Origin: Muribaculum gordoncarteri
Lineage (GTDB): Bacteria; Bacteroidota; Bacteroidia; Bacteroidales; Muribaculaceae
DNA: 64,000 nt
Direction: 5' to 3'
NCBI RefSeq assembly: GCF_004803695.1
Contig: NZ_CP039393.1
Coordinates: 434,001 to 498,000 of the forward strand
The first letter of the stretch is position 1; each line of letters starts with the position of its first letter. Below, in pieces: positions 33,623 to 52,862 of this stretch. Position numbers and translations under genes: made by a program. Below the pieces are notes generated by a model. That model was not told the DNA's origin, searched no databases, and saw nothing but the letters and a program-made list of their open reading frames with translations.

Positions 33623-34537
33623 ATGGCTGACTCGACATTACGCAAATATATCTGGCTTATTAATACCATTCTTGATGCCGGTAAATTGACCTTTAGGGAG
33701 ATCAGTGAAAAATGGGACAACTCTTCCCTGAACTATAAGGGTGTGGAATTGTCAAAGCGCACATTCCATAATCATAGGATGGCTATTCTTACGGAACTGG
33801 GGGTTGATATTCAATGCACTTCCAAGAGAGAAAACAGTCAGTATTATATCGCCAATCAGGATGAAATAGAGAAGAATGATGTTCTGAACTGGCTTACCGA
33901 CAGTATGGCTACTGAGCAGTTGCTCCTTGAAAACAAGTCAATAGCCAATAAAATTGTTCTCGAACCGATTCCCGGAGGACGCGAATGGCTGACATTGCTT
34001 TTGCAGGCGTTGAGGGACAATGTGAGAATAGTCTTCCAATATACCTCGTTTCATTCCTCGACGAAAAACGACACCAATAGAACGTTGGAGCCACTGTGCC
34101 TCAAATTGTTCAAGAGAAGGTGGTATATGCTTGGTCAAACCATTGATAGCGGCAAGCGACTGATTTTCGCGCTTGACCGAATTACGAATCTTGAACTTAC
34201 CACGGAACGATTTGAATATCCGGAGGATTTTTCGGCTAAGGATTTCTTTGCAAATTTCTATGGAATCTGTTCCGATGAATATTCGCGACCCACACGAGTG
34301 ATTTTGAAATGCTACCGAGAATTTCCCAAGTATATGAGGTCGCTGCCACTGCATCATTCACAGGAGGAACTGGAAAATGGAGAGGATTTCACTACGTTCG
34401 GCTTTTATATGTCGCCGGCATATGATTTTGTTCAGGAGATTTTAAGCCACGGGAGCGATATAGAAGTGCTTGCTCCTGTTTGGCTGCGCAATTTAATAAA
34501 AGAAAAGACCGAGGCTTTGACTGCCTTGTACAAATAG
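33623..34537 (+). CDS. WYL-domain transcriptional regulator (WYL-1)
   Basis: 304 residues. N-terminal winged helix (LRKYIWLINTILDAGKLTFREISEKW), then the WYL domain at about 120-200 (VRIVFQYTSFH, LKLFKRRWYMLG, FALDRITNLEL) and a C-terminal WCX-like extension ending near IKEKTEALTALYK. This architecture is that of ligand-sensing regulators such as BrxR/CapW that control phage-defence genes. It has a ~40% similar relative in this window (WYL-2, 58028-58930; similarity judged by eye). A palindrome follows the gene, then the retron, whose promoter shares the WYL-1 operator, so WYL-1 probably represses both. Confidence 0.9.
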   Translation: MADSTLRKYIWLINTILDAGKLTFREISEKWDNSSLNYKGVELSKRTFHNHRMAILTELGVDIQCTSKRENSQYYIANQDEIEKNDVLNWLTDSMATEQLLLENKSIANKIVLEPIPGGREWLTLLLQALRDNVRIVFQYTSFHSSTKNDTNRTLEPLCLKLFKRRWYMLGQTIDSGKRLIFALDRITNLELTTERFEYPEDFSAKDFFANFYGICSDEYSRPTRVILKCYREFPKYMRSLPLHHSQEELENGEDFTTFGFYMSPAYDFVQEILSHGSDIEVLAPVWLRNLIKEKTEALTALYK

Positions 34538-34552
34538 ATTCAGCAATTTCTG

Positions 34553-34580
34553 AAAATCGTTTCATATATGAAACGATTTT
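34553..34580. terminator. Perfect 28-bp palindrome after WYL-1
   Basis: Left half AAAATCGTTTCATA is exactly self-complementary to the right half. It lies 15 bp after the WYL-1 stop and is followed by TTCATATG, so it may act as a bidirectional terminator; it also overlaps the retron operator region, so an operator role is possible. Confidence 0.5.
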
Positions 34581-34602
34581 TCATATGTCCTCTATATTTT
34601 TG
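34565..34602 (+). promoter_or_regulatory. Retron promoter with WYL-1-type operator
   Basis: TATATGAA (34565-34572), N7, TTCATATG (34580-34587) is an inverted repeat centred at 34576, 19 nt before the -7 box TATTTTTG (34595-34602). Half-site and geometry match the WYL-1 promoter (TGTATGAA...TTCACACA). A second inverted repeat, ATGTCCTCT (34585-34593) and AGAGGACAT (34619-34627), brackets the start-site region. Confidence 0.5.
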
Positions 34603-34628
34603 CGTCATAAACAAGAAAAGAGGACATT

Positions 34629-34871
34629 GAAAACATCGGTCTAACCTTTGCAACCTGTCTGCTGCATCCGGCAGACTTCGTCCTGATTTACATCAAGACG
34701 CCACCCAATGTCAGTTACTCGGCATCGGCCCTGCACGCTGTTCACTCCAGTCGTGCATGCTCCATCACCTTCGCTTCGCTCCCGGTGATGTGAAATGCAC
34801 TCCCTCGTTCACAGCGCACATTGTCGAAGCCTCGACCATCCGGCGAACACGAAAGTAAGACCGATGTTTTC
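34629..34871 (+). ncRNA. Retron msr-msd non-coding RNA
   Basis: GAAAACATCGGTCT (34629-34642) is exactly complementary to AGACCGATGTTTTC (34858-34871), a 14-bp a1/a2 helix that closes a 243-nt RNA. Inside are an msr-like hairpin GTCTGCTG/CGGCAGAC (34657-34676, loop CATC) and an msd-like arm: CAATGT 34706-34711 with ACATTG 34818-34823, CGCTGT with ACAGCG (34736-34741/34811-34816), GTGCAT 34753-34758 with ATGCAC 34795-34800, and CATCACC 34763-34769 with GGTGATG 34784-34790. The promoter starts ~20 nt before a1, and the reverse transcriptase gene begins 26 bp after a2. The branching G was not identified with certainty. Confidence 0.75.
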
Positions 34872-34896
34872 TCTGCTCTCGCAAAATGATTGAAAT

Positions 34897-35976
34897 ATGC
34901 GAACCCAAATTGCAGATTATCTCAAGGATTTAACCATCGGTAACCGCAAGGAATTATTTGAGGTGCTGAATTTCATAGCACCGCTTGTCGACTGCTGGAG
35001 CTTGGCCGAGCCCAAATCCGGCAAGCAGATAATGCGGTATGCGTCAGCCAATGCGAGAAAATCCGCTTATGTCGAGTTTTCAATCCCCAAAAAATCCGGA
35101 GGGCAGCGCACAATCAGCGCTCCGATAAAGCCGCTAAAGGCTATCCAGTCAGCAATAAACATTCTCCTGCAATCTATATTCGTGCCCGACAACCATGCCA
35201 CCGGTTTTGTATTAGATAGAAGTGTCAAGGATAATGCATTGATACATGTCGGTCAAACCTGCATATTTAATACGGATCTTGAAAATTTCTTTCCGAGCAT
35301 AACTAAAATTATGATTCGCAAGGCGCTTCATAGGGAACTTGGTGACAAATTGCAAAGCAAAGAAGTCATCAATATTATATGCAGACTATGCACCGTTCCT
35401 AACAGTTCGGGTATCGAAGTACTTCCGCAAGGCGCTCCGACATCGCCGGCATTGTCTAATATTGTGCTGAAAAGCTTTGATAAAGATATGTCAAAGCTCG
35501 CCGAACGGATGGGGTGTAAGTATTCCCGCTATGCCGATGATATAACATTCAGCCACAGCAAATCAATTCGACGAATGAGCCTGTTCTGGCAATCAAGGAT
35601 TTATAACATCATAGCGGGATATGGATTAAAAGTGAACGAGAAGAAAACAAAGACATTAGTCCGTGGCACACGCCAAGAAGTTACCGGAGTCGTTGTAGGC
35701 GATAAAATCAACGTTCCACGCTCCTGCGTAAAACATCTGCGAGTGCTTTTGCACTTGTGGAAGAAATATGGTTATACACAGGCTCAGATTATCTTCACCC
35801 GCGACTTCTGCAAGGGCAAGGAAAAGAACCTTGTCAATGTAATAGATGGTAAAATAAACTATCTTGAAATGATCAAAGGCAAAGATGACTCGACTTATAG
35901 AAAGTTGAAAAGCTGGTTCAATCGTCTTCAATGGAAAGAGAAACAAAGGTCAAACCAAATGCAAAAAGCAATATGA
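34897..35976 (+). CDS. Retron-type reverse transcriptase
   Basis: 359 residues. All hallmarks are visible: NALIHVG (113-119, retron NAxxH motif in region X), FNTDLENFFPSI (catalytic Asp of motif A), PQGAPTSPALSN (177-188), RYADDITFS with YADD at 212-215, and VTG (262-264), the retron-specific region Y motif. No maturase/X or C-terminal effector domain follows, and there is no group II intron or DGR feature. It would reverse-transcribe the RNA at 34629-34871 into msDNA. The stop codon overlaps the ATG of a hydrolase gene by 4 bp. Retrons are phage-defence systems whose accessory gene is the effector. Confidence 0.93.
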   Translation: MRTQIADYLKDLTIGNRKELFEVLNFIAPLVDCWSLAEPKSGKQIMRYASANARKSAYVEFSIPKKSGGQRTISAPIKPLKAIQSAINILLQSIFVPDNHATGFVLDRSVKDNALIHVGQTCIFNTDLENFFPSITKIMIRKALHRELGDKLQSKEVINIICRLCTVPNSSGIEVLPQGAPTSPALSNIVLKSFDKDMSKLAERMGCKYSRYADDITFSHSKSIRRMSLFWQSRIYNIIAGYGLKVNEKKTKTLVRGTRQEVTGVVVGDKINVPRSCVKHLRVLLHLWKKYGYTQAQIIFTRDFCKGKEKNLVNVIDGKINYLEMIKGKDDSTYRKLKSWFNRLQWKEKQRSNQMQKAI

Positions 35977-36190
35977 ACATCATTTATTTACATGGACTCT
36001 CCTCATCGGGTCAGTCCAACACAGCAAAAAAGCTTCGGGAACTGCTTCCTGACGACAATGTTGTCACTCCCGACATCCCTGTCAGCCCCATTGAGGCTCT
36101 TCAATTGTTGCTGCGTCTTGCCGGAGAGTATAGGGCTGATGACACACAATCGTAGTCGGTACATCTATGGGTGCCATGTCCTGCTCTTAC
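35973..36190 (+). pseudogene. Broken alpha/beta-hydrolase (YqiA/YcfP-like) coupled to the retron RT
   Basis: ATG 35973 overlaps the RT stop (ATGA). The first 60 codons read MNIIYLHGLSSSGQSNTAK..., a YqiA-type esterase N-terminus with the HG oxyanion motif, up to RADDTQ and a stop at 36153-36155. In the +1-shifted frame the family continues at once: TIVVGTSMGAM, containing the nucleophile elbow GTSMG. After about 36178 homology ends. So one frameshift plus loss of the C-terminal two thirds. Its coupling to the RT makes it the natural candidate for an ancestral retron accessory gene. Confidence 0.65.
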
Positions 36191-36264
36191 TGAAGACGCA
36201 AATGAAGATGCTGTCCAACTTGTCTATGGCAATCGGTGGTGTCAGGCCCCCTCGGTAGAGATCT

Positions 36265-36771
36265 ATGGAGAGGGCTGAGGCTCTATTTCTCCAACGACTT
36301 GATCCTGCAATAGTGGAACTTGCAAAGAGAATCGGACGAGGAAGCGAGGATGCCGGTTGCATTTCCGGGAAATTCAAGACGGCATCGCGGAGCGATATAA
36401 GCGGTATTACAGTCGGCAATGACGAGAACCGGCTTTTTGATTTCATTTTTAAAAAGATGCCTGATAACCCACGATACCGACAATTCACTAATTCATTCAC
36501 AGGTGCTGACATATTGGTCGTTTCTGATTTTGAATGGAGTTATCTGTCTGATAAAAACAAGAAATTGATAGCCGAAGCACGTACGGAGGGTATGAAATTC
36601 TATGGTCTTGGAATTCATACAAGGGAATATGAACTCGACAAGATTGAAGACTCGAACGATAACGATTGGATTAACGGATATAGATTCCTGAAGCAGTGTG
36701 ATTATCGTTATCTGTATGAGAAAGGCAAAGTTGTTGAATATTTTGAACGACCAAATATATTATGGAACTGA
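36265..36771 (+). pseudogene. VWA/CoxE (ViaA-like) protein remnant with internal deletion
   Basis: The 168-codon frame is open but looks like two parts of a larger protein joined. Its start, FLQRLDPAIVELAKRIGR, resembles the region before the VWA domain in ViaA/CoxE-like proteins; the part from DENRLFDFIF through ADILVVSDFEWSYL and GMKFYGLGIH resembles the second half of a VWA domain. The segment that should carry the metal site DxSxS is missing at ITVGND/ENRL, and the N-terminal region is absent. The sequence 36191-36264 contains only debris. Likely non-functional, though it could be expressed. Confidence 0.5.
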
Positions 36772-36980
36772 AAATGCGACTTGAAGATGCAATGGTGTAT
36801 GTACTTGCCACTGCCGGATATGGAATGACCACCCGACGAATAGCCGAGGTTATCAACCGAGAGAAACTTCATGTGCGGACTGATGGAAATCCCGTCACCG
36901 ACAGGCAGGTTTATGCCGCTGTATACCGGAATCCGCAGACTTTTGTCAAAGAAGGCGGTCGAATACTGTTTGCCATGTGA
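36762..36980 (+). CDS. Small winged-helix protein
   Basis: 72 residues, overlapping the previous frame by 10 bp. The sequence MVYVLATAGYGMTTRRIAEVINREKLHVRTDGNPVTDRQVY (quoted in part) has the look of a HARE-HTH-type winged helix: a helix, then TTRRIAEVI as the second helix and VTDRQVYAAVYRNP as recognition helix, ending with a beta hairpin. Probably DNA-binding; target unknown. The regulated promoter at 36994-37029 starts 13 bp after its stop. Confidence 0.6.
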   Translation: MELKMRLEDAMVYVLATAGYGMTTRRIAEVINREKLHVRTDGNPVTDRQVYAAVYRNPQTFVKEGGRILFAM

Positions 36981-36993
36981 TTTTATTTTGTGC

Positions 36994-37029
36994 TGTATCG
37001 CGAGTTGCAACAGGCTGACGCTTATTTTG
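36994..37029 (+). promoter_or_regulatory. WYL-2-type operator/promoter cut off from its gene by IS insertion
   Basis: TGTATC, N7, GCAACA (36994-37012) is centred 19 nt before TTATTTTG (37022-37029, one mismatch to TAnnTTTG). The geometry equals that of four or five other promoters in this window. The expected start (about 37036) is exactly at the IS junction TACTA. The sequence on the far side of the composite element (48960 onward) continues into a gene whose family also stands behind another copy of this operator, so this was very probably its promoter. Confidence 0.5.
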
Positions 37030-37040
37030 CAACAATACTA

Positions 37041-38365
37041 CTGGTGCGATAAAATCGCGTTAGTTTAGAAATCATCAAATAAAGAGAGTTCTTTGACATT
37101 TTGATTTGAATTGGTTGACAAGTCTTGGGTGGTTAGAAGTTGTCGTAACTCGACACGTTCCAAAGCAGAGATTCTGATAAGGGTCGCCACTTCGGTTATA
37201 GAATAGCAGCTTTTATAATCGGCCTTTATTCGAGCTACCGTAAGATAGGCAATGACAGCAGTCCAAAGATGGATTTTTACCGCGTTCTCGGAAAATCCCC
37301 AAAGGGTCTTCACGACAATATTCTGTTTGATCCATTTGAAGAAAACTTCTATATCCCAGCGATGGCGGTAGAGATTGGATATTTCCAAGGCACTGATTTC
37401 AAAGTTATTGGATATGAAATCCACAATTGTGTCATTGTCCGGGTCATATACTCGTACAAACCGCATGTCATCAGGATAGAGTTTACTCGATTTATATCCG
37501 GTGACACGAATCCGAGAGTCTTCTATGATGCCGGACTTTGCATCGGGTATTTCCATTTGCCCGATTGTCATGAACTTCATGTTCTCTTTCGGACGGGATA
37601 CCCAGAATGCCTGTGACTGATGGAATCTGAACAAAGCCTTGAAATCAACATAAGCCTTGTCCATCACATAGAAGGCGAATGGTTCCGGCAACAGTATGTC
37701 AAGTTCGTTGCTGTCATGCCATTTTCCATCGGTAATATGAATGTTTGCCGGTATGCTTCCACGCAAATCAAGCAATGTGTGCATCTTTACAGCGCCTTTG
37801 CTGTATTTGCCCAATGCCCATGTCGCAAGTTTTATGCTGGTTGATATGGTTGTGGAGTCCAACGCATAGATTACGTTGTCTATGGTTATCTCGGATAGTT
37901 TAGCCTTTGAATACATGGGCCTTACCAATCCTATTAGATAAATTCCCAGTCCCTCAAAAATTCGATAGTCCCGACTTTCGTTAGCCCGCGACAAAGATGT
38001 GTGGTTGACTGTTTTCCGAAAACCGAGATGATATAGCATTTTTGAATGGGCCTCCAGACATAGACAGATGTCCCGTAGCGAATCACAGCCTGTCAGCTGT
38101 CCGAAGAGCAGATGAAGGAGGTGATTGTAACTGTTGAGATTCTTTACATGCCAGTCTCCTTTATACAGCCTTACGAGCTTATCGAACTGGTAGCGCGGTA
38201 TAAATTCGATTACTTGGGAGAAAACATACTTACCCTGATTCATAATCTTGATGTTTGGGAACAACAAGACTAATAAATCAATTTCAAATCAAAAAATCAA
38301 TGTTCTCTTGTATTTGACTAAATATTAATATTTTAATAACAGTGGTAAGATTTTTATCGCACCAC
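37041..38365 (-). mobile_element. IS4-family insertion sequence, copy 1 (1325 bp)
   Basis: Ends are inverted repeats: CTGGTGCGATAAAA at the left and, read inward, GTGGTGCGATAAAAATC at the right. Both sides are flanked by TACTA (37036-37040 and 38366-38370), a likely 5-bp target duplication. It contains one transposase gene on the minus strand. A second copy of identical length is at 47635-48959. Confidence 0.85.
37065..38267 (-). CDS. IS4-family transposase with DUF4372 N-terminus (copy 1)
   Basis: 400 residues. The N-terminal ~75 residues (GKYVFSQVIEFIPRYQFDKL, HLLFGQLTGCDSLRDI) are the DUF4372 domain. The DDE catalytic core shows ALDSTTISTSIKLATWA (first Asp), VMDKAYVDFKAL (second Asp) and the YREK motif YRHRWDIEVFFKWIKQN (Glu). 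The frame is intact. It differs from copy 2 at only about seven residues (for example FGQLTG versus FGLLTG, LLTTQDL versus LLTKQDL). Confidence 0.93.
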   Translation of the reverse strand: MLFPNIKIMNQGKYVFSQVIEFIPRYQFDKLVRLYKGDWHVKNLNSYNHLLHLLFGQLTGCDSLRDICLCLEAHSKMLYHLGFRKTVNHTSLSRANESRDYRIFEGLGIYLIGLVRPMYSKAKLSEITIDNVIYALDSTTISTSIKLATWALGKYSKGAVKMHTLLDLRGSIPANIHITDGKWHDSNELDILLPEPFAFYVMDKAYVDFKALFRFHQSQAFWVSRPKENMKFMTIGQMEIPDAKSGIIEDSRIRVTGYKSSKLYPDDMRFVRVYDPDNDTIVDFISNNFEISALEISNLYRHRWDIEVFFKWIKQNIVVKTLWGFSENAVKIHLWTAVIAYLTVARIKADYKSCYSITEVATLIRISALERVELRQLLTTQDLSTNSNQNVKELSLFDDF

Positions 38366-38602
38366 TACTAATTTAGGATATAGAATTTCATAATCAGACT
38401 CGATTAAGCAGTATGGACATAAAGGCGGGGAAACCTGCCTTTATGTATATCTAATGTACTTATAAATAATTTATAATGGACAAAGATTTTAACCACTCCA
38501 TTAAGAATAGTTTAACAGCTTATTGAGGTACAAAGTCTTCATCCTCAATTTGAATAAATTAGATATTTGCGGTTTTTGCTGTTCGGTTAAAAAAATGAAA
38601 TA
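38366..38602. other. Gap between IS copy 1 and the B12 operon
   Basis: No gene seen. A 13-bp hairpin ACATAAAGGCGGG/CCTGCCTTTATGT at 38417-38446 looks like a leftover terminator of a lost gene. The remainder is AT-rich without recognised features. Confidence 0.4.
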
Positions 38603-38634
38603 TTTGGTGGTAATGGTTATTTTTTGTATTTTTG
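38603..38634 (+). promoter_or_regulatory. Promoter of the B12 uptake operon
   Basis: TTTG at 38603-38606, 20-bp spacer, TATTTTTG at 38627-38634: a full Bacteroidetes consensus promoter, with the expected start at about 38640 just where the riboswitch begins. Confidence 0.7.
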
Positions 38635-38640
38635 CGGCTG

Positions 38641-38900
38641 AAATGGTTGCTCTGCCGTCCAAGAGTGGAGGCGTGAAGGAGCATTAAAAGGGAATGAGGT
38701 GAGATTCCTCGACAGTACCCGCTGCTGTAATTCCCGTTCTTTGACGATGTATATGCGTTATTGAACAAGGTTTTTCGCAACCTGCCACTGGTCTCCGTAA
38801 GACTGGGAAGGCGCGATTGAACCGGGATAAGTCAGAAGACCTGCCATTTTCGCCAAGTGATACCGCCTACGGGACTATGGGCTTAGGTTGTCTGACTTCT
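38641..38900 (+). promoter_or_regulatory. Cobalamin (B12) riboswitch
   Basis: The aptamer core is present: AAAAGGGAATGAGGTGAGA at 38686-38704, the B12-box-like GACAGTACCCGCTGCTGTAA after it, GCCACTGG, and the 3' half AGTCAGAAGACCTGCC at 38830-38845. The element 38829-38836 (AAGTCAGA) can alternatively pair with TCTGACTT at 38891-38898, a plausible expression platform. It precedes lipoproteins, BtuG and BtuB. By analogy, adenosylcobalamin binding would shut the operon. Confidence 0.92.
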
Positions 38901-38937
38901 TACCTCGTAAGTTGTTTTTAACGACTATAATTCTATC

Positions 38938-38987
38938 TATTCCCGTTATAGCTTCACTAAGCGTTATCGGGAATATTTATTTTTTAA
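38938..38987 (+). terminator. Terminator-like hairpin between riboswitch and first gene
   Basis: TATTCCCG (38938-38945) pairs with CGGGAATA (38968-38975) with a 22-nt loop, followed by TTTATTTTTTAAT. Lies 25 bp before the first ATG; it could be the OFF-state terminator of the riboswitch. Confidence 0.55.
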
Positions 38988-39011
38988 TATTAACTAAAAA
39001 CAACAACGAGT

Positions 39012-39965
39012 ATGAAAAAACTCCTACGTTTCGCAGCTTACGGCTTCGCTTTGGTCGTAGCTGCAACCATCACCGGGTGTTCCAATGAGGATGCCTTAGT
39101 CGATAACTTCGACGTAGCGGACGGCAAGCCGTTGAGCCGCTCAGCATCAAGTCAGGTCATAATTGACTTCGAGAATTTGATGTCCTTTGAAGATGTCGAT
39201 GTCTTGGCTGGTCCAACATCCTATGGACGCAATTATTATTCAGACTACAGTGGTACCCAGATTACGGGTATAATGAATTTGGATGGATCTTTTACATCCA
39301 TGGAAAATGAAGGCTCATGGCCTACCGGAAACCCCATTGCTCCATCCTATATGTTTGGTGGTATCGCAGTTTCGGATTGGGCAATGACTTCAAATCCTTC
39401 TTCAAACCCCAATCCCGGTAAGCCTTTCACTGATAAATGGTGGATGTCTGAATACAACCAGATGAGTGTATATAATACGGCTCGTACTGCCACCGGTAAT
39501 CGAGGCGGAGCAGGTGCTAATGGCTCGAACAACTTCGGTGTAGTTTACGGTTTTGATGACTCCTACGGTTATGCTAAAGAAGCTTCATTCGAAATTTCTT
39601 CAATGACTCTTAAATCCCTTAAGATCTGTAATACCGCTTATACTTATGGAGTTATCCAGAATGGGAATACGTGGATTGGAGAGAATGGCGTGGAAGTTAC
39701 GGCTAAATCCCTTAAAGATTCAAAAGGCTATTTTAATCTCATTATAAAGTGTTTCGATGCAAGTGGCAATATTGTTAAACGCATAGAAACTCCACTTGCG
39801 GACTATCGTAATGGCAAAAACATCTGTGTGACTACTTGGACGACAATTACGGTTAATGCCGCCAATGTAGCTAAAGTTCAGTTCGGTTTCTGGGGATCTG
39901 ACATCCATGAAGGAGGTCCTACTACCCCATGCTATGTTGCGATTGATGATATAGTATTGGAATAA
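39012..39965 (+). CDS. DUF4465 lipoprotein, possibly a BtuH-type B12-binding protein
   Basis: 317 residues. Signal peptide with lipobox TITGCSNED (Cys about residue 23). The rest resembles DUF4465: IDFENLMS at the mature start, FGGIAVSDWAMTS, NNFGVVYGFDD and a C-terminal WGSDIHEGGPTTPCYVAIDD beta-sandwich ending. Members occur in Bacteroidetes B12 loci behind cobalamin riboswitches and some bind B12 on the cell surface (BtuH); that specific assignment is from memory and not verified. First gene of the operon, 112 bp after the riboswitch. Confidence 0.8.
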   Translation: MKKLLRFAAYGFALVVAATITGCSNEDALVDNFDVADGKPLSRSASSQVIIDFENLMSFEDVDVLAGPTSYGRNYYSDYSGTQITGIMNLDGSFTSMENEGSWPTGNPIAPSYMFGGIAVSDWAMTSNPSSNPNPGKPFTDKWWMSEYNQMSVYNTARTATGNRGGAGANGSNNFGVVYGFDDSYGYAKEASFEISSMTLKSLKICNTAYTYGVIQNGNTWIGENGVEVTAKSLKDSKGYFNLIIKCFDASGNIVKRIETPLADYRNGKNICVTTWTTITVNAANVAKVQFGFWGSDIHEGGPTTPCYVAIDDIVLE

Positions 39966-39974
39966 TAATATAAA

Positions 39975-40010
39975 GAAGCTGTTTGTGATAACTTGATCAC
40001 AAACAGCTTC
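39975..40010 (+). other. Intercistronic 15-bp hairpin in the B12 operon
   Basis: GAAGCTGTTTGTGAT (39975-39989) is perfectly complementary to ATCACAAACAGCTTC (39996-40010), loop AACTTG, followed by ATTCGG rather than a T run. Likely an mRNA stabiliser or partial attenuator that makes the first lipoprotein more abundant. Confidence 0.55.
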
Positions 40011-40028
40011 ATTCGGTTGACAAAACAA

Positions 40029-41777
40029 ATGAATAGATATTTACTCGCAATTTTTATCATCTTTATTGCATTGACATCATGCAATAAAGATGATAACTTG
40101 TACGACAATAACGGGCTGCCTTCAGTAGAGTTTGACTCTGAGACAGGAATCTACACTGTTAAGCAGGGACGTTCAATTACGATAACACCGGAATATAAAA
40201 ATGTCAATAACGCCGTTTTTGCTTGGACTATTGACGGTCGGTTGGTTTCTACATCACAGTCTCTCACTTTCTCATCTGATGAAATAGGCGATTATTTCGT
40301 GACTTTGCGAGTGGATACCGAAGTCGGTTCAGTAAAAGACGAAATAAAGATTGAAGTAGTTGATCTGCTTCCACCAACAATCTCGTTCCTACTACCGCCT
40401 CAGGGTCTGAAAGTAAAAAAAGGTACAGATTATACTTTGGCTCCGGAAATCCAGAATGATGAAGATGATAATTTCGAAATCGAATGGATAATTGACAACA
40501 AAGTTGTCGGCAGAGAAAAAACTTATGTTTTCAATGAGGATAAGATTGGTGAATATACCGTCACCATCAACGCCTCAAACGATGATGGTAAGACTTCCTA
40601 TGACCTAAAAATTCAGGTTTTGGAGTCGGATCCATTTGTGGTCAGCTTCTTGAAACCTTACTATCTGGCTGAGGAAAATGTAAGATATGTTTATCCCGAT
40701 CAGTCTGTTTTCCTAAGACCTCATCTTGAATATTTCACAAATCCTACTTTCAAGTGGAGTGTGAACGGAAAGGAAATAGCGGACGCTTCCTCTCAAACAT
40801 ACGCTTTTACTCCTACATCTCCCGGCAACTACATGGTGACAGTGACCGTTACTGAAAAGTCTGAACATTCTGATGCATCAGTAAGCACAACTGTAAAGGT
40901 TGTTTGTGTGACCGGCAGTCCTGCTGATAGATTCAGGCCCCTGACAGCTTCAAGTGCAAAAAAAAGCAACAAAGTATATGAATTTTCTCCAGCTCCGGGT
41001 CAGTTTATTAATACAACTATGGGCTCCAATGGCTATACGGGAAACGAAACAACAATGGAACTGGCGTGTGCATTTGCAGAGCGTAACTTATCGAACGGAT
41101 GGTACGTTTCATTGGGAGCGTGGGGAGGGTCGTTGATAGTAGGCTTTGACCATAGTATAAAGAATCAAAAAGGAAATGAATATGACTTTGCAACTCTAGG
41201 AAATGCCTTTGGCACTTCAAATGAACCCGGAATTGTTTGGGTGATGCAGGACACCAACGGAAATGGTTTACCTGATGACGAATGGTATGAGCTCCGAGCT
41301 TCAGAAACCGGGAAAGCGACTACAATTCAGGATTACGAGGTGACTTATTTCCGTCCGGGGCCATATGCCATGGATAATTTTTGGATTGATTGCTTCGGTA
41401 AAGAAGGAAGTGTTAAAAGAAATCAGTATCATGGGCAGGAATATTATTATCCAATATGGATGCCGGAATCTTACACCGTCAGAGGAACACTCATACCCGG
41501 AACAATGAGTAATGAGGGGCATGCACCTTATCCTTGGGGGTATGTGGATAATGTTGGTAGTGATTGCGTTTGGGAGCCAATACCTGGGGTTAGCGGTGGA
41601 CAGAAGAACGGTTTTAAAATATCAAATGCTATGTATCCTGACGGAACTCCGATAAAGTTGGACTATATAGATTTTGTTAAGGTTCAGTGTGCTGTTCAGG
41701 AATATCATGTTTCATTTGGGGAAGTCTCAACCGAAGTTTTCTCAATAGAAGATAGAAATTCACTCGAAAATAAATAA
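40029..41777 (+). CDS. PKD-like domain surface lipoprotein of the B12 operon
   Basis: 582 residues from ATG 40029; the frame extends upstream to a TTG inside the hairpin, which is not a likely start. Lipobox FIALTSCNKDDN. Three PKD/Ig-like repeats of about 85 residues follow, with the recurring pattern FAWTIDGRLVS, IEWIIDNKVVG and FKWSVNGKEIA. The C-terminal ~270 residues form another domain (WYVSLGAWGGSLIVGFDHSI, VMQDTNGNGLPDDEWYELRA, DDEWYE acidic patch). Proteins of this type are common in Bacteroidetes B12 loci; a surface role in cobalamin capture is inferred. Confidence 0.8.
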   Translation: MNRYLLAIFIIFIALTSCNKDDNLYDNNGLPSVEFDSETGIYTVKQGRSITITPEYKNVNNAVFAWTIDGRLVSTSQSLTFSSDEIGDYFVTLRVDTEVGSVKDEIKIEVVDLLPPTISFLLPPQGLKVKKGTDYTLAPEIQNDEDDNFEIEWIIDNKVVGREKTYVFNEDKIGEYTVTINASNDDGKTSYDLKIQVLESDPFVVSFLKPYYLAEENVRYVYPDQSVFLRPHLEYFTNPTFKWSVNGKEIADASSQTYAFTPTSPGNYMVTVTVTEKSEHSDASVSTTVKVVCVTGSPADRFRPLTASSAKKSNKVYEFSPAPGQFINTTMGSNGYTGNETTMELACAFAERNLSNGWYVSLGAWGGSLIVGFDHSIKNQKGNEYDFATLGNAFGTSNEPGIVWVMQDTNGNGLPDDEWYELRASETGKATTIQDYEVTYFRPGPYAMDNFWIDCFGKEGSVKRNQYHGQEYYYPIWMPESYTVRGTLIPGTMSNEGHAPYPWGYVDNVGSDCVWEPIPGVSGGQKNGFKISNAMYPDGTPIKLDYIDFVKVQCAVQEYHVSFGEVSTEVFSIEDRNSLENK

Positions 41778-41799
41778 TATTAATACGATTGCATAACAA

Positions 41800-43938
41800 A
41801 TGAAAAAAGTTTGGTCTATACTTATCGTTACATTCTCGCTTTTCATAGCGGGATGTTCCGATGATGACAAAATGCCGGCAGATGCTGATGATAACTTCAT
41901 CACAACTCTGACTTTGACAAAAGACGGAAAATCATATGATGCCGTCATTGAAGGTAATGACATTGTAATGACAGTGCCATATACTGTAGATCTCAATGGT
42001 GCTACCGCATCCATGGTCTATACTCCGTCTGCGAAAATTCTTCCTAACCCCCAGACTGTCACTGACTGGGATAGCGAAATGATTTTCCGCGTCACCTCCT
42101 TCAATGGGAAAGTAAATGAATATACTTATAAAGTAATCAAGTCTGAAATAGAATCGGATGGCGATGTTGTCTTGAAATCTCAGGCTGACGTGGATGCGTT
42201 TGCCGAGACAAAAGTATCTGTCATCAAGGGCAACCTTATAATCGGCAATAATGCCGAGAATGCGGCTGCAATCAACACTCTTGAAGCGTTGTCAGGTATT
42301 AAGGAAATAACAGGTTCGCTACAGATCCTTAACAATTACAAAGGGGAAGCTCTTGATGGATTGGTTTTCACTAAAGTCGGTGGAATTCAGTTCGGTACGA
42401 AAGAGACACCATCACCATGTACTGACACTTACCGATTTCGCCTTGAGCAGCTTCAGGAAATTACAGGAAATCTGGAGCTGAACAACAATGCGGTTCAGTT
42501 TATTGAGTTTGACAATCTCACGAAAGTTGAGGGTGACATTTATATCAAAGATGATGCCCTTACTACACTCTATTTCCCGAAACTTGCAGAAGTCGGAGGA
42601 GACCTTGATATGAGCGATAACTCAGTTGTCAATCGTGAATATGGCACGAGTGATATCAAAGATACGCCATTAGCTCAGTTGGAATTCCCTGCGTTGGAAA
42701 ATGTCTCAGGCAAATTCTCAATAAATATGCCATCAGATAATTTCCAGTCCTTAAAATTACCGAAATTGCAAACCGCAGGTGAAATAGACTTTTTAGTTGG
42801 CTGGCAATTCAAAACATTGGAGATTCTTGAGATTTCAGAAGTAAACGGTAATTTATTATTATCCGGACGTTATGAATCTACTGCGTATGCTAAGTATTTA
42901 AATCAAACATTAGAGAGAATCGTAGGGTTAAATAATCTTAAACAAGTAAAAGGTACGCTGAATATCTCCAATTTTGGTGCGATATCTGAATTACCGAATT
43001 TATCCTCTCTTTCTTTGGTTGGTGGAGTTTTCATTGAAAATTTATGGGGTCTTCAAGGGAAGAGTACGGTTTGTGACTTAAGCAATGCATCTTTTCAATC
43101 ATTTAATGATGTTAATCCGTTTATACACATAGGTGGTACAGCATTCGACAAATTAAAGACGAAAGATGATTTATCCAATGTGAATATTGAAATGTCTATA
43201 ATATGCTATGCTGACAGATGTATACCGGATATCAATTTTAAAAAGGCTTCGGATTTCACATGTAAATTTGACTTTTCCAATCTTGCAGCTAACGAAAAGA
43301 ATCAGACATTTGCTTTAGAAGAAATTCTTGGTGACGCAAATTTTAGTGTAATTGCCTGCTCAGGCAAATCAGTTGATCTGTCTAATATCAAATCGGTTGA
43401 AGGAAGTTTTTCCTTTATTTGTCCAACAGCAAAGTCACTTGATATTTCCTCTTTGGAAGAAGTTGGAGGATATTTTTATTTGCAGCCTTTAATGGTTAAA
43501 AGCCCCGTGAAACTTGATAAATTAAAATCTGTGAATATGTCCAATGGTAGAGGTAGTAGAGCTATTCCGACTGAAGATAGATCTAAAGGTCTATTTATTG
43601 GAGGCTGTCATATGGATCTCAATCTCCCGGAATTAGAATCTGTGGGTGGGATATTCGGAATTATGAATTCCACCTTAATAAACTGTCCCAAACTTAAATC
43701 AGTTTCGGAAAAATTATTTATAAGTACCGCCCCCAAATGTACGCAGGTTTCTTTCCCCGTATTAAATTCTGTACCTAACATCAAAATTGAAAGTATGGGT
43801 AAACTTTCTGACTTCTCTACTTTTGCCTCAGTCATTGAAAACGGTTCAGTGACTGATGGGAATTGGGAGGTAACAGGCTGCGCATATAATCCTACATGGC
43901 AAGACATGAAGGATGGTCGTTACAAACCTGCTGAATAA
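41800..43938 (+). CDS. L-domain/leucine-rich-like surface lipoprotein of the B12 operon
   Basis: 712 residues. Lipobox LFIAGCSDDDK. An N-terminal DUF5018-like beta domain (TLTLTKDGKSYDAVIEG) precedes repeated beta-solenoid turns of the receptor-L type: IKGNLIIGNNAENAA, ITGNLELNNNAVQF, VEGDIYIKDDALTTL, VGGDLDMSDNSV, VGGYFYLQ and so on, each about 20-25 residues. No catalytic motif. Probably an extracellular binding or scaffold protein. The C-terminal half is AT-richer. A terminator-like hairpin follows before btuG. Confidence 0.72.
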   Translation: MKKVWSILIVTFSLFIAGCSDDDKMPADADDNFITTLTLTKDGKSYDAVIEGNDIVMTVPYTVDLNGATASMVYTPSAKILPNPQTVTDWDSEMIFRVTSFNGKVNEYTYKVIKSEIESDGDVVLKSQADVDAFAETKVSVIKGNLIIGNNAENAAAINTLEALSGIKEITGSLQILNNYKGEALDGLVFTKVGGIQFGTKETPSPCTDTYRFRLEQLQEITGNLELNNNAVQFIEFDNLTKVEGDIYIKDDALTTLYFPKLAEVGGDLDMSDNSVVNREYGTSDIKDTPLAQLEFPALENVSGKFSINMPSDNFQSLKLPKLQTAGEIDFLVGWQFKTLEILEISEVNGNLLLSGRYESTAYAKYLNQTLERIVGLNNLKQVKGTLNISNFGAISELPNLSSLSLVGGVFIENLWGLQGKSTVCDLSNASFQSFNDVNPFIHIGGTAFDKLKTKDDLSNVNIEMSIICYADRCIPDINFKKASDFTCKFDFSNLAANEKNQTFALEEILGDANFSVIACSGKSVDLSNIKSVEGSFSFICPTAKSLDISSLEEVGGYFYLQPLMVKSPVKLDKLKSVNMSNGRGSRAIPTEDRSKGLFIGGCHMDLNLPELESVGGIFGIMNSTLINCPKLKSVSEKLFISTAPKCTQVSFPVLNSVPNIKIESMGKLSDFSTFASVIENGSVTDGNWEVTGCAYNPTWQDMKDGRYKPAE

Positions 43939-43969
43939 AACAGCTCAAACAGTTAAAATTTTTCTGCCA

Positions 43970-44015
43970 AACCTCGGCTCGTATATTACCTTGAATAGCG
44001 GGCCGAGGTTTTTCC
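43970..44015 (+). terminator. Terminator-like hairpin before btuG
   Basis: AACCTCGGC (43970-43978) pairs with GCCGAGGTT (44002-44010), 23-nt loop, followed by TTTTCC. Only 15 bp separate it from the btuG ATG and no new promoter is visible, so it is probably a partial terminator inside the operon. Confidence 0.6.
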
Positions 44016-44025
44016 AATTATTAAA

Positions 44026-45099
44026 ATGAAATTCAAACCGAAACTCTTATATATCCTGACAACTCTGCTGTCGCTCTCATTTGCTTCCTGCATGGAGTGG
44101 GATTATGGCGATGTGGTAGAAGACTTTAATGCAACAGGCTCCGGACTTTTCATTACCAACGAGGGTAACTTCCAGTATGGCAACGCGACGCTTTCCTATT
44201 ATGATCCGGCAACGAATCAAGTTCAGAATGAGGTGTTTTTCCGTGCAAACGGTATGAGACTCGGGGACGTAGCGCAGTCCATGAGTATCTATGACAACAA
44301 AGGGTGGATAGTGGTGAACAATTCCCATGTCATCTTTGCTATCGACCTCAATACGTTCAAGGAAGTGGGGCGCATCGAGGATCTGACCTCTCCGCGTTAT
44401 ATCTACTTCCTGAGCGATGAAAAGGCTTACGTCACGCAGCTTTGGGACAACCGCATCTTCATTGTCAATCCCAAGAAATATGAAATTACGGGCTACATTC
44501 AAGTGCCTGACATGACGATGGAGAGCGGCTCAACGGAACAGATGGTGCAATACGGCAAGTATGTCTATTGCAACTGCTGGAGCTACCAGAACCGCATCAT
44601 CAAGATAGATACTGAGACGGACGAGGTGGTGGACCAGTTGACGGTGGGCATACAGCCTACATCGCTTGTCCTGGATAAAAACGACAAGATGTGGACTATC
44701 ACCGACGGCGGTTATGAAGGCTCGCCATACGGATATGAGACACCTTCGCTCTATAAGATTGATGCCTCAACTTTTACTGTTGAAAAACAGTGGAAATTCA
44801 AACTCGGTGATGCTCCGAGCGAGCTGCAGCTCAACGGCGAACGTGACAAGCTGTACTGGATCAACAATGACATCTGGAGTATGGACGTGACGGCAAACCG
44901 TGTTCCTGTCCGTCCTTTCCTCGAATACCGCGACACGAAGTATTACGGACTTACCGTAAATCCTGTGAACGGCGAAGTGTATGTAGCCGATGCCATCGAC
45001 TACCAACAGCAGGGCATGATCTACCGATACTCGCCCGAAGGAAAACTGATTGATGAATTTTATGTCGGCATAATACCCGGCGCATTCTGCTGGAAGTGA
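44026..45099 (+). CDS. btuG: Surface B12-binding beta-propeller lipoprotein BtuG
   Basis: 357 residues. Lipobox FASCMEWDYGDVV. The mature protein is made of propeller blades with YVTN-like repeats: GSGLFITNEGNFQYGNATLS, VVNNSHVIFAIDLNTFKEVG, YVTQLWDNRIFIVNPKKYE, IKIDTETDEVVDQLTVG, and YVADAIDYQQQGMIYRYSPEG. BtuG in Bacteroides is a high-affinity surface cobalamin binder that sits on BtuB. The operon ends with btuB, which supports the call. Its TGA overlaps the next ATG by two bases (TGATG). Confidence 0.9.
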   Translation: MKFKPKLLYILTTLLSLSFASCMEWDYGDVVEDFNATGSGLFITNEGNFQYGNATLSYYDPATNQVQNEVFFRANGMRLGDVAQSMSIYDNKGWIVVNNSHVIFAIDLNTFKEVGRIEDLTSPRYIYFLSDEKAYVTQLWDNRIFIVNPKKYEITGYIQVPDMTMESGSTEQMVQYGKYVYCNCWSYQNRIIKIDTETDEVVDQLTVGIQPTSLVLDKNDKMWTITDGGYEGSPYGYETPSLYKIDASTFTVEKQWKFKLGDAPSELQLNGERDKLYWINNDIWSMDVTANRVPVRPFLEYRDTKYYGLTVNPVNGEVYVADAIDYQQQGMIYRYSPEGKLIDEFYVGIIPGAFCWK

Positions 45100-45518
45100 T
45101 GGAGGCATTAGGAAACATATATCATCTGATTTTTCAGACAAGAGACTTTGGAGTTGCGATACCGCCTCTCCACAGGGATGAATTCTTTGATGCCATCGCA
45201 CTTCTCTTCAGCAACCGCCACTGCCCGGTTTATGCCGTCGGAGGAGATATGCACCATGTCCATATCCTTACAGAAATCCCGCTCCGCAAAAACGTGAAGA
45301 AGCTGATTGAGAAAATCAAAAATATCAGTTGTTTCAGGGCTGCCGGCATTCTGGATATGGAAAGATTCGGAGGATGGCTCAAAGGCTGTCTGTCCTTTAT
45401 TATCGAACGTGACCGACTGCCATTCTGGGCCGATTACATTGAACAGCAAGATACAATACACTCTAAAATAAGCTGGATGCAGGAGAAACGTCAGTTTATG
45501 AACTATAATCTTTTTTAA
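45099..45518 (+). CDS. Y1 HUH transposase-like protein (TnpA_REP/IS200-like), co-transcribed with btuG and btuB
   Basis: 139 residues from ATG 45099, coupled to the btuG stop. The HUH motif is MHHVHIL (His at 53 and 55) and the catalytic tyrosine lies in ADYIEQQ (Tyr113), as in single-domain Y1 transposases and REP-associated transposases. No flanking IS200-type ends or TnpB were noticed, and the gene sits within the operon without disturbing it, so it may be a domesticated copy. Ten bp separate it from btuB. Confidence 0.8.
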   Translation: MEALGNIYHLIFQTRDFGVAIPPLHRDEFFDAIALLFSNRHCPVYAVGGDMHHVHILTEIPLRKNVKKLIEKIKNISCFRAAGILDMERFGGWLKGCLSFIIERDRLPFWADYIEQQDTIHSKISWMQEKRQFMNYNLF

Positions 45519-45528
45519 GCCGCCAATT

Positions 45529-47622
45529 ATGAGAACAGACCGGTCATACATATATCTTTTTCTGTGCATTTTGAATTTTGCATTGTGCACCGGAACTTAC
45601 GCACAGTCTTCACAGAGAATGCACAATCTGCGTGAGGTCGTGGTGTGGGGCAAACGCCCGATGAAGGATATCGGAGTGCAGAAAACAACTTTTGATTCCA
45701 TCGCCCTCAAAGAGAATATCGCCCTCTCTATGGCGGACATCCTTACGTTCAATTCTTCAGTCTTCGTCAAGAGCTACGGTCGAGCCACACTCTCCACCGT
45801 CGCCTTCCGTGGAACCTCCCCCAGCCATACGCAGGTGACGTGGAACGGCATGCGCATTAACAATCCCATGCTCGGCATGACCGACTTCTCCACCATTCCG
45901 TCCTATTTCATAGACCAGGCATCGCTGCTCCACGGCACTTCATCAGTCAACGAGACAGGCGGCGGTCTGGGCGGTCTTGTCAAACTCGGAACGATTCCCG
46001 ATGTGGCGGAAGGTGTCAATCTGCAATATGTGCAGGGAGTGGGCTCATTCAGCACATTCGACGAGTTCGCCCGGTTTACCTATGGCAGTGAACACTGGCA
46101 CGTTTCAAGCCGTGTAGTATATTCATCTTCACCAAACGACTACAAGTACATCAACCACGACAAGAAGGTGAACATCTACGACGATGACAAGAACATAATA
46201 GGTCAGTATCATCCGACGGAACGGAACCGCAGCGGTGCCTACAAAGATTTCCATGCGCTGCAGGAGGTGTACTACAACACCAATAATGGTGACCGTTTCG
46301 GGTTCAACGCATGGTACATCAACTCCAACCGCGAACTGCCCATGCTCACCACCGACTACGGCAACGAGCGCAACTTCGAGAACCGTCAGCGTGAACAGAC
46401 CCTGCGCAGCGTCCTCTCATGGGATCATCGGCGCGATGGCTGGAAATTTGCAGCAAAAGGGGGATATATCCACACATGGATGGCGTATGACTACAAGCGT
46501 GAGGTAGCTGAAAACAACTGGTCGTCCATGACACGCTCACGAAGCAGGGTAAACACTTTCTACGGTCAGGCAGAGGGTGAGTATAATCCCACAAGGAAAT
46601 GGTATTTTACCGCCAATATTTCGGCACATCAGCATTTCGTCCGCTCCGAGGATAAGAACATTATCCTTCAGGATGGTGACAAAGCCATTGTCGGTTACGA
46701 CAAGGGGCGCATCGAACTCTCCGGCTCCGCTTCAGCTAAATGGCAGCCGATCAATCCGCTGGGCTTGTCACTCGTACTGCGTCAGGAGATGTTCGGCGAC
46801 AAATGGGCTCCCGTAATCCCGGCTTTCTTCATCGACGGTCTTCTGTCAAGGAAAGGGAACGTCATGCTGAAAGCGTCCGTATCACGCAACCACAAGTTTC
46901 CTACGCTCAATGACCTCTATTTTCTCCCCGGCGGCAATCCTGACCTGAAGAGCGAGCATGGTTGGACGTATGACGCCGGTGCATCGTTCGATGTGGGTTG
47001 GAAAGCTCCCTTCCCGGTGTCGATGGGAGGAAGTGTCACATGGTTTGACAGCCGTATCGATGACTGGATTATATGGCTTCCCACAACCAAAGGGTTCTTC
47101 TCGCCGCGCAATGTAAAGAAGGTACACGCCTACGGCATCGAGGGAAAGCTCAATATCGCTTTCGAACCTTTCAAGGGGTGGATTTTCGACCTGAACGGGT
47201 CATATTCATGGACACCCTCCATCAACGAGGGTGAAAAGATGTCACCTGCCGACCAGTCTGTAGGCAAACAGCTCCCATACGTCCCCAAGCACTCGGCTTC
47301 GCTCACGGGGCGTCTTACATGGAAGTCATGGAGCTTCCTGTATAAATGGGCTTACTATTCAGAGAGATTCACCATGTCAAGCAACGACTATACTATCACA
47401 GGGCACCTCCCTAAGTATTACATGAGCAACGTATCCCTTGAAAAAGGGCTGAAGTTCAAACCTGTCGATTTACAGCTGAAACTGGCTGTGAACAATCTCT
47501 TCAACGAGGACTATCTCTCAGTCCTCTCGCGTCCCATGCCCGGCATCAACTTCGAGTTCTTTGTCGGAATAACACCAAAGTTCGGAAAGAAAAAGACTGA
47601 ACCGAAAACAGATAATTATTGA
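45529..47622 (+). CDS. btuB: TonB-dependent cobalamin transporter BtuB
   Basis: 697 residues. Signal peptide ends near CTGTYAQS. Plug domain: LREVVVWGKRPMKDIG, then FRGTSPSHTQVTWNGMRI and SSVNETGGGLGGLVKL, about residues 25-160; the barrel follows, with NPDLKSEHGWTYDAGASF and a C-terminal strand near FEFFVGITPKF. Called BtuB from the riboswitch, btuG partner and family rather than from a unique motif. It would import B12 across the outer membrane with TonB energy. The right IS copy begins 12 bp after its stop, so no terminator of its own is left. Confidence 0.88.
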   Translation: MRTDRSYIYLFLCILNFALCTGTYAQSSQRMHNLREVVVWGKRPMKDIGVQKTTFDSIALKENIALSMADILTFNSSVFVKSYGRATLSTVAFRGTSPSHTQVTWNGMRINNPMLGMTDFSTIPSYFIDQASLLHGTSSVNETGGGLGGLVKLGTIPDVAEGVNLQYVQGVGSFSTFDEFARFTYGSEHWHVSSRVVYSSSPNDYKYINHDKKVNIYDDDKNIIGQYHPTERNRSGAYKDFHALQEVYYNTNNGDRFGFNAWYINSNRELPMLTTDYGNERNFENRQREQTLRSVLSWDHRRDGWKFAAKGGYIHTWMAYDYKREVAENNWSSMTRSRSRVNTFYGQAEGEYNPTRKWYFTANISAHQHFVRSEDKNIILQDGDKAIVGYDKGRIELSGSASAKWQPINPLGLSLVLRQEMFGDKWAPVIPAFFIDGLLSRKGNVMLKASVSRNHKFPTLNDLYFLPGGNPDLKSEHGWTYDAGASFDVGWKAPFPVSMGGSVTWFDSRIDDWIIWLPTTKGFFSPRNVKKVHAYGIEGKLNIAFEPFKGWIFDLNGSYSWTPSINEGEKMSPADQSVGKQLPYVPKHSASLTGRLTWKSWSFLYKWAYYSERFTMSSNDYTITGHLPKYYMSNVSLEKGLKFKPVDLQLKLAVNNLFNEDYLSVLSRPMPGINFEFFVGITPKFGKKKTEPKTDNY

Positions 47623-47634
47623 AACAAACTACTA

Positions 47635-48959
47635 CTGGTGCGATAAAATCGCGTTGGTTTAGAAATCATCAAATAAAGAGATATCTTTGACATTTTGATT
47701 TGAATTGGTTGACAAGTCTTGCTTGGTTAGAAGTTGTCGTAACTCGACACGTTCCAAAGCAGAGATTCTGATAAGGGTCGCCACTTCGGTTATAGAATAG
47801 CAGCTTTTATAATCGGCCTTTATTCGAGCTACCGTAAGATAGGCAATGACAGCAGTCCAAAGATGGATTTTTACCGCGTTCTCGGAAAATCCCCAAAGGG
47901 TCTTCACGACAATATTCTGTTTGATCCATTTGAAGAAAACTTCTATATCCCAGCGATGGCGGTAGAGATTGGATATTTCCAAGGCACTGATTTCAAAGTT
48001 ATTGGATATGAAATCCACAATTGTGTCATTGTCCGGGTCATATACTCGTACAAACCGCATGTCATCAGGATAGAGTTTACTCGACTTATATCCGGTTACC
48101 CGAATACGGGAGTCTTCTATGATGCCTGACTTTGCATTGGGGATTTCCATTTGCCCGATTGTCATGAACTTCATGTTCTCTTTCGGACGGGATACCCAGA
48201 ATGCCTGTGACTGATGGAATCTGAACAAAGCCTTGAAGTCAACATAAGCCTTGTCCATCACATAGAATGCGAATGGTTCCGGCGAAAGCATGTCAAGTTC
48301 GTTGCTGTCATGCCATTTTCCATCGGTAATATGAATGTTTGCCGGTATGCTTCCACGCAAATCAAGCAATGTGTGCATCTTTACAGCGCCTTTGCTGTAT
48401 TTGCCCAATGCCCATGTCGCAAGTTTTATGCTGGTTGATATGGTTGTGGAGTCCAACGCATAGATTACGTTGTCTATGGTTATCTCGGATAGTTTAGCCT
48501 TTGAATACATGGGTCTTACCAATCCTATTAGATAAATTCCCAGTCCCTCAAAAATTCGATAGTCCCGACTTTCGTTAGCCCGCGACAAAGATGTGTGGTT
48601 GACTGTTTTCCGAAAACCGAGATGATATAGCATCTTTGAATGGGCCTCCAGACATAGACAGATGTCTCGTAGCGAATCACAGCCCGTCAACAGTCCGAAG
48701 AGCAGATGAAGGAGGTGATTGTAACTGTTGAGATTCTTTACATGCCAATCTCCTTTATACAGCCTTACAAGCTTATCGAACTGGTAACGCGGTATAAATT
48801 CAATTACCTGGGAGAAAACATACTTACCCTGATTCATAATCTTGATGTTTGGGAACAACAAGACTAATAAATCAATTTCAAATCAAAAAATCAATGTTCT
48901 CTTGTATTTGACTAAATATTAATATTTTAATAACAGTGGTAAGATTTTTATCGCACCAC
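47635..48959 (-). mobile_element. IS4-family insertion sequence, copy 2 (1325 bp)
   Basis: Same length, end repeats and orientation as copy 1. TACTA flanks it at 47630-47634 and 48960-48964. It starts 12 bp after the btuB stop. Confidence 0.85.
47659..48861 (-). CDS. IS4-family transposase with DUF4372 N-terminus (copy 2)
   Basis: 400 residues, intact; DDE motifs LDSTTISTS, VMDKAYVDF and YRHRWDIEVFFKWIK as in copy 1, from which it differs at about seven positions (NELDMLSPEPF here versus NELDILLPEPF; NVKDISLF versus NVKELSLF). Confidence 0.93.
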   Translation of the reverse strand: MLFPNIKIMNQGKYVFSQVIEFIPRYQFDKLVRLYKGDWHVKNLNSYNHLLHLLFGLLTGCDSLRDICLCLEAHSKMLYHLGFRKTVNHTSLSRANESRDYRIFEGLGIYLIGLVRPMYSKAKLSEITIDNVIYALDSTTISTSIKLATWALGKYSKGAVKMHTLLDLRGSIPANIHITDGKWHDSNELDMLSPEPFAFYVMDKAYVDFKALFRFHQSQAFWVSRPKENMKFMTIGQMEIPNAKSGIIEDSRIRVTGYKSSKLYPDDMRFVRVYDPDNDTIVDFISNNFEISALEISNLYRHRWDIEVFFKWIKQNIVVKTLWGFSENAVKIHLWTAVIAYLTVARIKADYKSCYSITEVATLIRISALERVELRQLLTKQDLSTNSNQNVKDISLFDDF

Positions 48960-48985
48960 TACTATTGCAACAAAAACAATTAGAT

Positions 48986-49882: not shown

Positions 49883-49896
49883 AAAATTTTTAATCG

Positions 49897-49932
49897 TGTA
49901 TCGCAGTTTGATACAGCATGAGCATAATTTTG
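49897..49932 (+). promoter_or_regulatory. WYL-2-type operator/promoter with perfect inverted repeat
   Basis: TGTATC (49897-49902), GCAGTTT, GATACA (49910-49915): perfect inverted repeat, centre 49906, 19 nt before TAATTTTG (49925-49932). It is the best copy of the shared operator and sits before the repeat protein gene. Confidence 0.6.
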
Positions 49933-49958
49933 CAGTGTAACATTAAAATCATAACAAT

Positions 49959-52859: not shown

Positions 52860-52862
52860 GTT

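Follow-up and report, generated by a model that had tools for sequence, protein, structure and literature searches.

A 64,000-nucleotide stretch of contig NZ_CP039393.1 of Muribaculum gordoncarteri (genome of 3.43 Mb in 3 contigs), here called the window and used as the coordinate frame throughout, carries what is best read as the remnant of a retron lineage that is unlisted in the resources searched and that combines a serine-esterase effector with an optional RavA/ViaA-like module. The window retains a WYL regulator gene, a palindrome, a structured noncoding RNA (ncRNA), an intact reverse transcriptase (RT) gene, and a gene for a 72-amino-acid (aa) protein, whereas the genes for a YqiA-like alpha/beta-hydrolase and a ViaA-like VWA protein survive only as fragments. 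With a probability of roughly 60%, this locus is what is left of a retron immune system in which a complex of RT, RNA, and multicopy single-stranded DNA (msDNA) held the serine esterase, a RavA/ViaA-like pair served as an optional switch, and the WYL protein repressed the operon. What the sequences show directly is how the genes are ordered and conserved, that the RNA covaries, that the hydrolase has a predicted esterase fold with an invariant candidate catalytic triad, and that the window copy is broken. A sequence-only reading of the same DNA had described a retron with an intact RT, an ncRNA, and a coupled but broken hydrolase; this description stands, but it overlooked the extent of the operon and the degree of its decay. 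The three checks proposed with it (whether the RT is of the retron class, whether the neighbors of its relatives include the hydrolase, and whether the a1/a2 helix of the RNA covaries) were run, and each came out in its favor.

The RT gene (34897 to 35976, forward strand, 359 aa) has an uninterrupted frame with an intact catalytic motif, YADD, flanked by the DNALIH and EVTG sequences; the naming of the three as retron motifs is that of the sequence-only reading. Retron models score best for this protein in both PADLOC and NCBIfam, in agreement with its earlier description as a retron RT. In PADLOC, the highest-scoring models are RT-Protease_XI (313.5 bits; E value of 7.3e-94), RT-TIR_XII (275 bits), RT_XIII (253 bits), and I-C (248 bits), compared with 168 bits for the outgroup RT model; in NCBIfam, the top three models are those of retrons, each scoring under its curated cutoff, and the group II maturase model reaches 83 bits. 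The Pfam RVT_1 domain is found at 8.7e-21, and the matches among solved structures in the PDB are headed by retrons Ec67, Ec83, and Ec86. The nearest model, type XI, describes a single-gene RT-protease fusion, whereas the window RT is unfused, the profile being aligned only to position 328-329 of 506-510. Type XII, the second model, is likewise a fusion, of RT and TIR, whereas here the alignment stops at position 342-344 of 475-478 (240 of 600 bits in NCBIfam) and a gene of its own encodes the hydrolase partner. Because the type XI model also scores best in all 10 other Bacteroidales RTs scanned, the best model assigns no type to the window RT. The ratio of nonsynonymous to synonymous substitution rates (dN/dS) between the window RT and those of loci L001, L002, L003, and L054 (four of seven relatives, the other three being saturated) is 0.08 to 0.09, and among these four it is 0.08 to 0.12. 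As judged from this pairwise average, which reaches back before the break in the hydrolase, the RT shows no sign of decay.

Upstream of the RT gene, on the same strand, lies the predicted msr-msd RNA (34629 to 34871), a structured element with complementary ends that is conserved and covaries among relatives. As had been claimed, its a1 (34629 to 34642) and a2 (34858 to 34871) ends are exact 14-nucleotide complements closing 243 nucleotides; the region from 34600 to 34896 folds with a z score of -5.64, and none of 200 shuffled sequences was equally stable. The alignment used for covariation comprised 10 RNAs (the window, L001 to L005, L036, L037, L038, and L054) and yielded a consensus structure of 73 pairs, 17 of them with changes on both sides (shuffle mean, 3.8; none of 500 shuffles reached 17), including 3 pairs within the a1/a2 helix. 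The weakest measure, further pair types, was reached by 10 of 500 shuffles. The share of paired cells is 95.4%, compared with 35 to 46% after sliding the partners, a figure favored by construction because the structure was derived from the same alignment; the relatedness of the sequences makes the shuffle test overstate the signal, and more weight falls on the both-side changes. In Rfam, no retron family matched at the gathering threshold in the window or at E ≤ 10 in positions 34540 to 34900; such a match is not required for retron status. The inner msd hairpin appears from the alignment to be duplicated in the RNA of L054.

A first search of contigs for relatives of the RT returned 5 loci of 69 to 84% identity, two of them from named Muribaculaceae isolates, and a search of 397 genomes of the family found RT matches at E ≤ 1e-40 in 41, four of which are the contigs of L001 to L004. 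After removal of duplicates, the clade consists of nine loci: the window, L001 to L005, L036, L054, and G161, whose parts lie in L038 and L086. When 47 RTs were placed in a tree by their first 430 residues, with L038 only partial, the nine loci formed one group (support, 95/69; 96% of 200 bootstrap trees) nested in a group with L037 (100/99) and then in one that adds L039 and L040 (100/100). The RT of L037 is 59% identical and its RNA 73.6% identical; L039 and L040 have no hydrolase match.

The gene linked to the RT throughout this clade encodes the hydrolase, which stands directly behind the RT in all nine loci and has no disrupting stop in eight (L001 to L005, L036, L054, and L086), the ninth being the broken window copy; the search for a conserved hydrolase partner, suggested on the basis of the window alone, was thus successful. 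In the window, its ATG at 35973 precedes the RT end at 35976, giving the 4-bp overlap reported earlier; the overlap is also 4 bp in six of the seven relatives measured, and L036 has a 5-bp gap. The hydrolase matches Pfam UPF0227 above the gathering threshold of 21 bits (35.6 bits in L002 and 47.5 bits in L005) and misses the NCBIfam equivalog cutoff for YqiA (47 of 252 bits). It shares with the YqiA/UPF0227 esterases the predicted fold and a candidate Ser-Asp-His catalytic triad, which is invariant. When the 397 genomes were surveyed at E ≤ 1e-10, only 6 had a match covering 310 or more of the 315 residues of the protein, and each of these genomes also encodes an RT of the clade. Most other matches span approximately residues 1 to 187 only, and one genome (G087) encodes the C-terminal domain alone. 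We infer that the hydrolase is the effector of the retron.

Several relatives show features of their own. In L001 (2580-3893) and L004 (7051-8370), the hydrolase is immediately followed by an opposite-strand gene for a protein of 437 to 439 aa; the product in L001 matches Pfam PDDEXK_4 (3.5e-9) and PADLOC PDC-S26 (1e-16), and that in L004, which resembles it by reading, had no match in NCBIfam, the only database tried. Locus L054 (MT838163.1), an unannotated record of 5606 bases from human feces labeled Bacteriophage sp., is mostly filled by the operon from the WYL gene to part of the VWA gene and may represent bacterial sequence that was picked up in a virome. Six other Muribaculaceae RTs (L016, L017, L022, L023, L027, and L030) are 488 to 659 aa long, with C-terminal parts of approximately 120 to 310 aa that have no Pfam match; in the five of them scanned by PADLOC, the best type XI match stops at position 325 to 388 of 510. 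In L055 (1532-3748), L067 (415-2589), and L071 (385-2556), a retron-like RT continues at its C terminus into a histidine kinase, which matches HisKin-conflict at 1.6e-84 to 1.7e-35. A response-regulator-like gene was seen by reading downstream of the L055 fusion, and in two Chryseobacterium plasmids the third gene after a related RT is annotated as a response regulator. These fusions possibly represent another unlisted kind of retron; among the literature matches listed, titles and abstract openings gave nothing clear on them.

Four of the nine loci (L002, L005, L036, and L054) encode behind the hydrolase, as a continuation of its string of overlapping genes, a RavA-like MoxR ATPase followed by a ViaA-like VWA protein; the MoxR frame is interrupted in L005, and the VWA gene of L054 runs off the contig. 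The VWA protein is full-length in L002, L005, and L036 (60 and 70% identical to that of L002), and the end of its gene is followed in all three by the 72-aa gene, whose product is 79 to 83% identical to that of the window copy. The latter (36762 to 36980, forward strand) is intact, closes the operon, and encodes a HARE-HTH-like protein (22.9 bits in Pfam, under the 25.9-bit cutoff). As judged from sequence, MoxR and VWA are homologs, not equivalogs, of RavA and ViaA: the order of the AAA+ and VWA genes is the same and the lengths are similar (471 and 483 aa, compared with models of 498 and 487), but MoxR matches RavA only over positions 4 to 309 (7.9e-99; 331.9 of 681 bits) and VWA matches ViaA over positions 196 to 427 (2.7e-29; 102.7 of 500 bits), both under the NCBIfam equivalog cutoffs. 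The bpMoxR domain scores 179.8 bits in MoxR against a cutoff of 27 (4.6e-53). A predicted conflict operon with such a pair resembles the MoxR-vWA ternary conflict systems, which include alpha/beta-hydrolases beside caspases among their linked parts (eLife 2020, PMC7159879), but the third component of those systems was not recognized in the retron operon; the passages concerned mention retrons only as relatives of the RTs of diversity-generating retroelements. A Pfam search of the hydrolase, of MoxR and VWA, and of the 72-aa protein found no beta-propeller, fold comparison having covered the hydrolase only. Seven full-length MoxR proteins of 48 to 64% identity all have a VWA neighbor (in two pieces in L127), and none has an RT or hydrolase of the retron kind in the stretch fetched (a 3.4-kb contig in the case of L130); the 72-aa gene occurs in two of these seven loci, among open reading frames (ORFs) of at least 70 aa. 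Because MoxR-VWA pairs thus exist elsewhere without a retron, the cassette was probably recruited into the retron operon.

The window hydrolase had been described as frameshifted and truncated, and alignment of the L002 protein by tblastn bears this out. In the remnant (35973 to 36272, forward strand), residues 2 to 62 of the 319-aa query (its numbering runs 4 ahead of that from the start Met) match the intact relative, residues 62 to 75 continue in another frame, residues 76 to 262 have no match, and residues 263 to 293 match again at 36180 to 36272. The candidate serine (residue 68, or 64 from the Met) falls inside the short out-of-frame piece and the Asp and His in the missing part, most of the catalytic domain and most of the C-terminal domain being lost. 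Because the VWA remnant (36211 to 36771, forward strand, with an ORF at 36265 to 36771) begins within this last hydrolase piece, the exact seam is unsure. In the VWA remnant, residues 175 to 249 are joined in frame to residues 366 to 483, a loss that includes residue 300 with the DTSGS metal-site motif. Between the two remnants, the window gave no match to MoxR. The window copy is best read as an effector-dead remnant; because its effector part is broken, at most it would still make RT, RNA, and msDNA, and it offers a naturally occurring RT-RNA pair that lacks a functional effector.

Beyond this, we infer msDNA production, sequestration, toxicity, a lipid target, a switch role, and repression. 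Retrons are DNA-producing elements with a known role in defense against phages. In the full system, the RT would make msDNA from the RNA, and the RT-RNA-msDNA complex would keep the YqiA-like serine esterase inactive, toxin-holding being the general retron model as set out in PMC12548924. A change induced by phage would then free the esterase to cleave an ester or thioester, most likely in a membrane lipid, and growth would stop. In the subset of relatives that encode them, the RavA-like AAA+ ATPase and the ViaA-like VWA protein could serve the esterase either as a switch driven by ATP or as an adaptor at the membrane. That the hydrolase persists without the pair in four loci suggests that the esterase is the minimal effector, and the binding of E. 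coli RavA and ViaA to phospholipids at the inner membrane (reported in PMC9489729) favors a membrane lipid as the target and, for the pair, a role as adaptor or switch.

A number of observations weigh against this reading. The model of the full-length hydrolase is of middling confidence (mean predicted local distance difference test score of 74). Some YqiA-like match, YqiA relatives being esterases, occurs in 77 of the 397 genomes, and in 16 loci fetched because the match was limited to the N-terminal domain, none has an RT, MoxR, or VWA match. Two loci, counted as misses for the RT-hydrolase pairing, have no RT in view: G351, where a hydrolase with a broken end is accompanied by MoxR and VWA and preceded by N's, and G264, where a partial hydrolase lies at a contig end. 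The MoxR-VWA pair is absent from four of the nine clade loci (L001, L003, L004, and G161), and similar pairs occur elsewhere without a retron, 38 of the 397 genomes having a MoxR match. Finally, since L037, the next RT outward, has a similar RNA and no hydrolase match, RT and hydrolase are paired in a single clade only, which has modest support (69) in the Shimodaira-Hasegawa-like approximate likelihood ratio test. Even so, the view that the hydrolase is a passenger gene of the same island, which the abundance of YqiA-like genes in the family might suggest, is largely refuted and very improbable, given the adjacency in nine of nine loci, mostly with 4-bp overlaps, and the occurrence of the full-length protein, among the 397 genomes, only together with this RT clade.

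The remaining alternatives concern the roles of the parts. It is possible, and we propose it tentatively, that the system is a retron that attacks lipids under chaperone control: a RavA/ViaA-type AAA+/VWA machine built into the operon would power or gate the serine esterase. Its parts would be a retron core, an esterase of the YqiA type that has gained a new C-terminal domain, and a MoxR-VWA-HARE cassette already resident. A MoxR-VWA pair acting as the main effector machine, with the hydrolase as a processing or maturation enzyme, would agree with the occurrence of the pair in four of nine loci plus the VWA remnant in the window, with the fit of MoxR to the bpMoxR model, and with the hydrolases and peptidases that are linked parts of MoxR-vWA conflict systems, alpha/beta-hydrolases being described beside caspases in PMC7159879; the intact hydrolases of L001, L003, L004, and L086, all without the pair, make it unlikely. 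Similarly doubtful is the idea that the window copy is not decaying and that RT and RNA were kept as a stand-alone unit for a new job: both are intact although the effector is broken, the RT dN/dS is as low as among the relatives, and in L037 an RT accompanied by a similar RNA stands without a hydrolase, but that ratio averages over time before the break at a synonymous divergence (dS) of 1.0 to 1.3, near saturation, and the first piece of the hydrolase retains 90% identity to a relative, so the loss may be recent. The held-esterase retron, of which the window has a remnant, is the reading we prefer.

The earlier suggestion of an unlisted retron type holds as far as PADLOC-DB 2.0.0 and literature titles and abstract openings reach: at E ≤ 0.001, neither the hydrolase nor MoxR nor VWA matches any model of the former, and the latter, among the matches listed, name no retron with an alpha/beta-hydrolase or RavA/ViaA partner. 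A 2026 preprint distinguishes sixteen retron subtypes by effector, with no hydrolase among the examples in the passage concerned (PMC13405049), and the word "hydrolase" is absent from the main text of a 2025 paper that counts 13 retron types (PMC12548924). If the proposed system is real, an esterase joins the kinds of retron effector, and retrons and MoxR-VWA machines, separately known themes, meet in one operon. Since some loci have the full set, with MoxR, VWA, and in most cases the 72-aa gene, and others a short one of just RT and hydrolase, whether the pair is needed is directly testable.

The operon is preceded by the gene for a 304-aa WYL-domain transcriptional regulator (33623 to 34537, forward strand; Pfam WYL, 9.9e-13, and WCX, 4.3e-8) and by a 28-bp perfect palindrome, AAAATCGTTTCATATATGAAACGATTTT (34553 to 34580), which precedes the RNA promoter and is a candidate WYL operator. 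A TAnnTTTG-like promoter, of a form used in Bacteroidetes, stands before the RNA. WYL homologs of 77 to 83% identity are encoded upstream of the retron in L002, L003, L004, L036, and L054, and L005, at a contig edge, retains a 36-residue end piece (61%). The palindrome core was found by pattern in the window, L003, L004, L036, and L054, with near forms seen by eye in L002 and L005 and a second copy between RNA and RT in L036. Outside this set, L037 has no WYL match and no palindrome, L038 has a WYL protein of only 38% identity and no palindrome was seen, and none was seen in L001, whose contig starts too late to show the regulator. By analogy with BrxR, another WYL regulator, described as repressing via inverted repeats (PMC9122601), and from this correlation, the WYL protein probably represses the operon via the palindrome. 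The window encodes a second WYL regulator (58028-58930), 36% identical to that of the retron.

Beyond the operon, positions 37027 to 48973 are probably a composite transposon, as two insertion sequence copies there are 97.6% identical and in the same orientation (the first is of the DUF4372/DDE type by Pfam) and a 9-bp repeat, TTGCAACAA, occurs at 37027 and 48965, at the outer ends only. Between the copies lie a cobalamin riboswitch and a series of genes (39012-47622) recognized by reading as surface-protein- and TonB-receptor-like. Two genes for proteins of 305 and 171 aa (48965 to 50474, forward strand) lie past this element, approximately 12 kb from the retron genes, which they follow in L003 (both) and L005 (the second); the transposon seems to have split the ancestral retron locus. 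Farther along, positions 51156 to 54785 hold two large adjacent ORFs of 567 and 640 aa with DGQQR motifs, perhaps a DUF262 or GmrSD-like defense pair.
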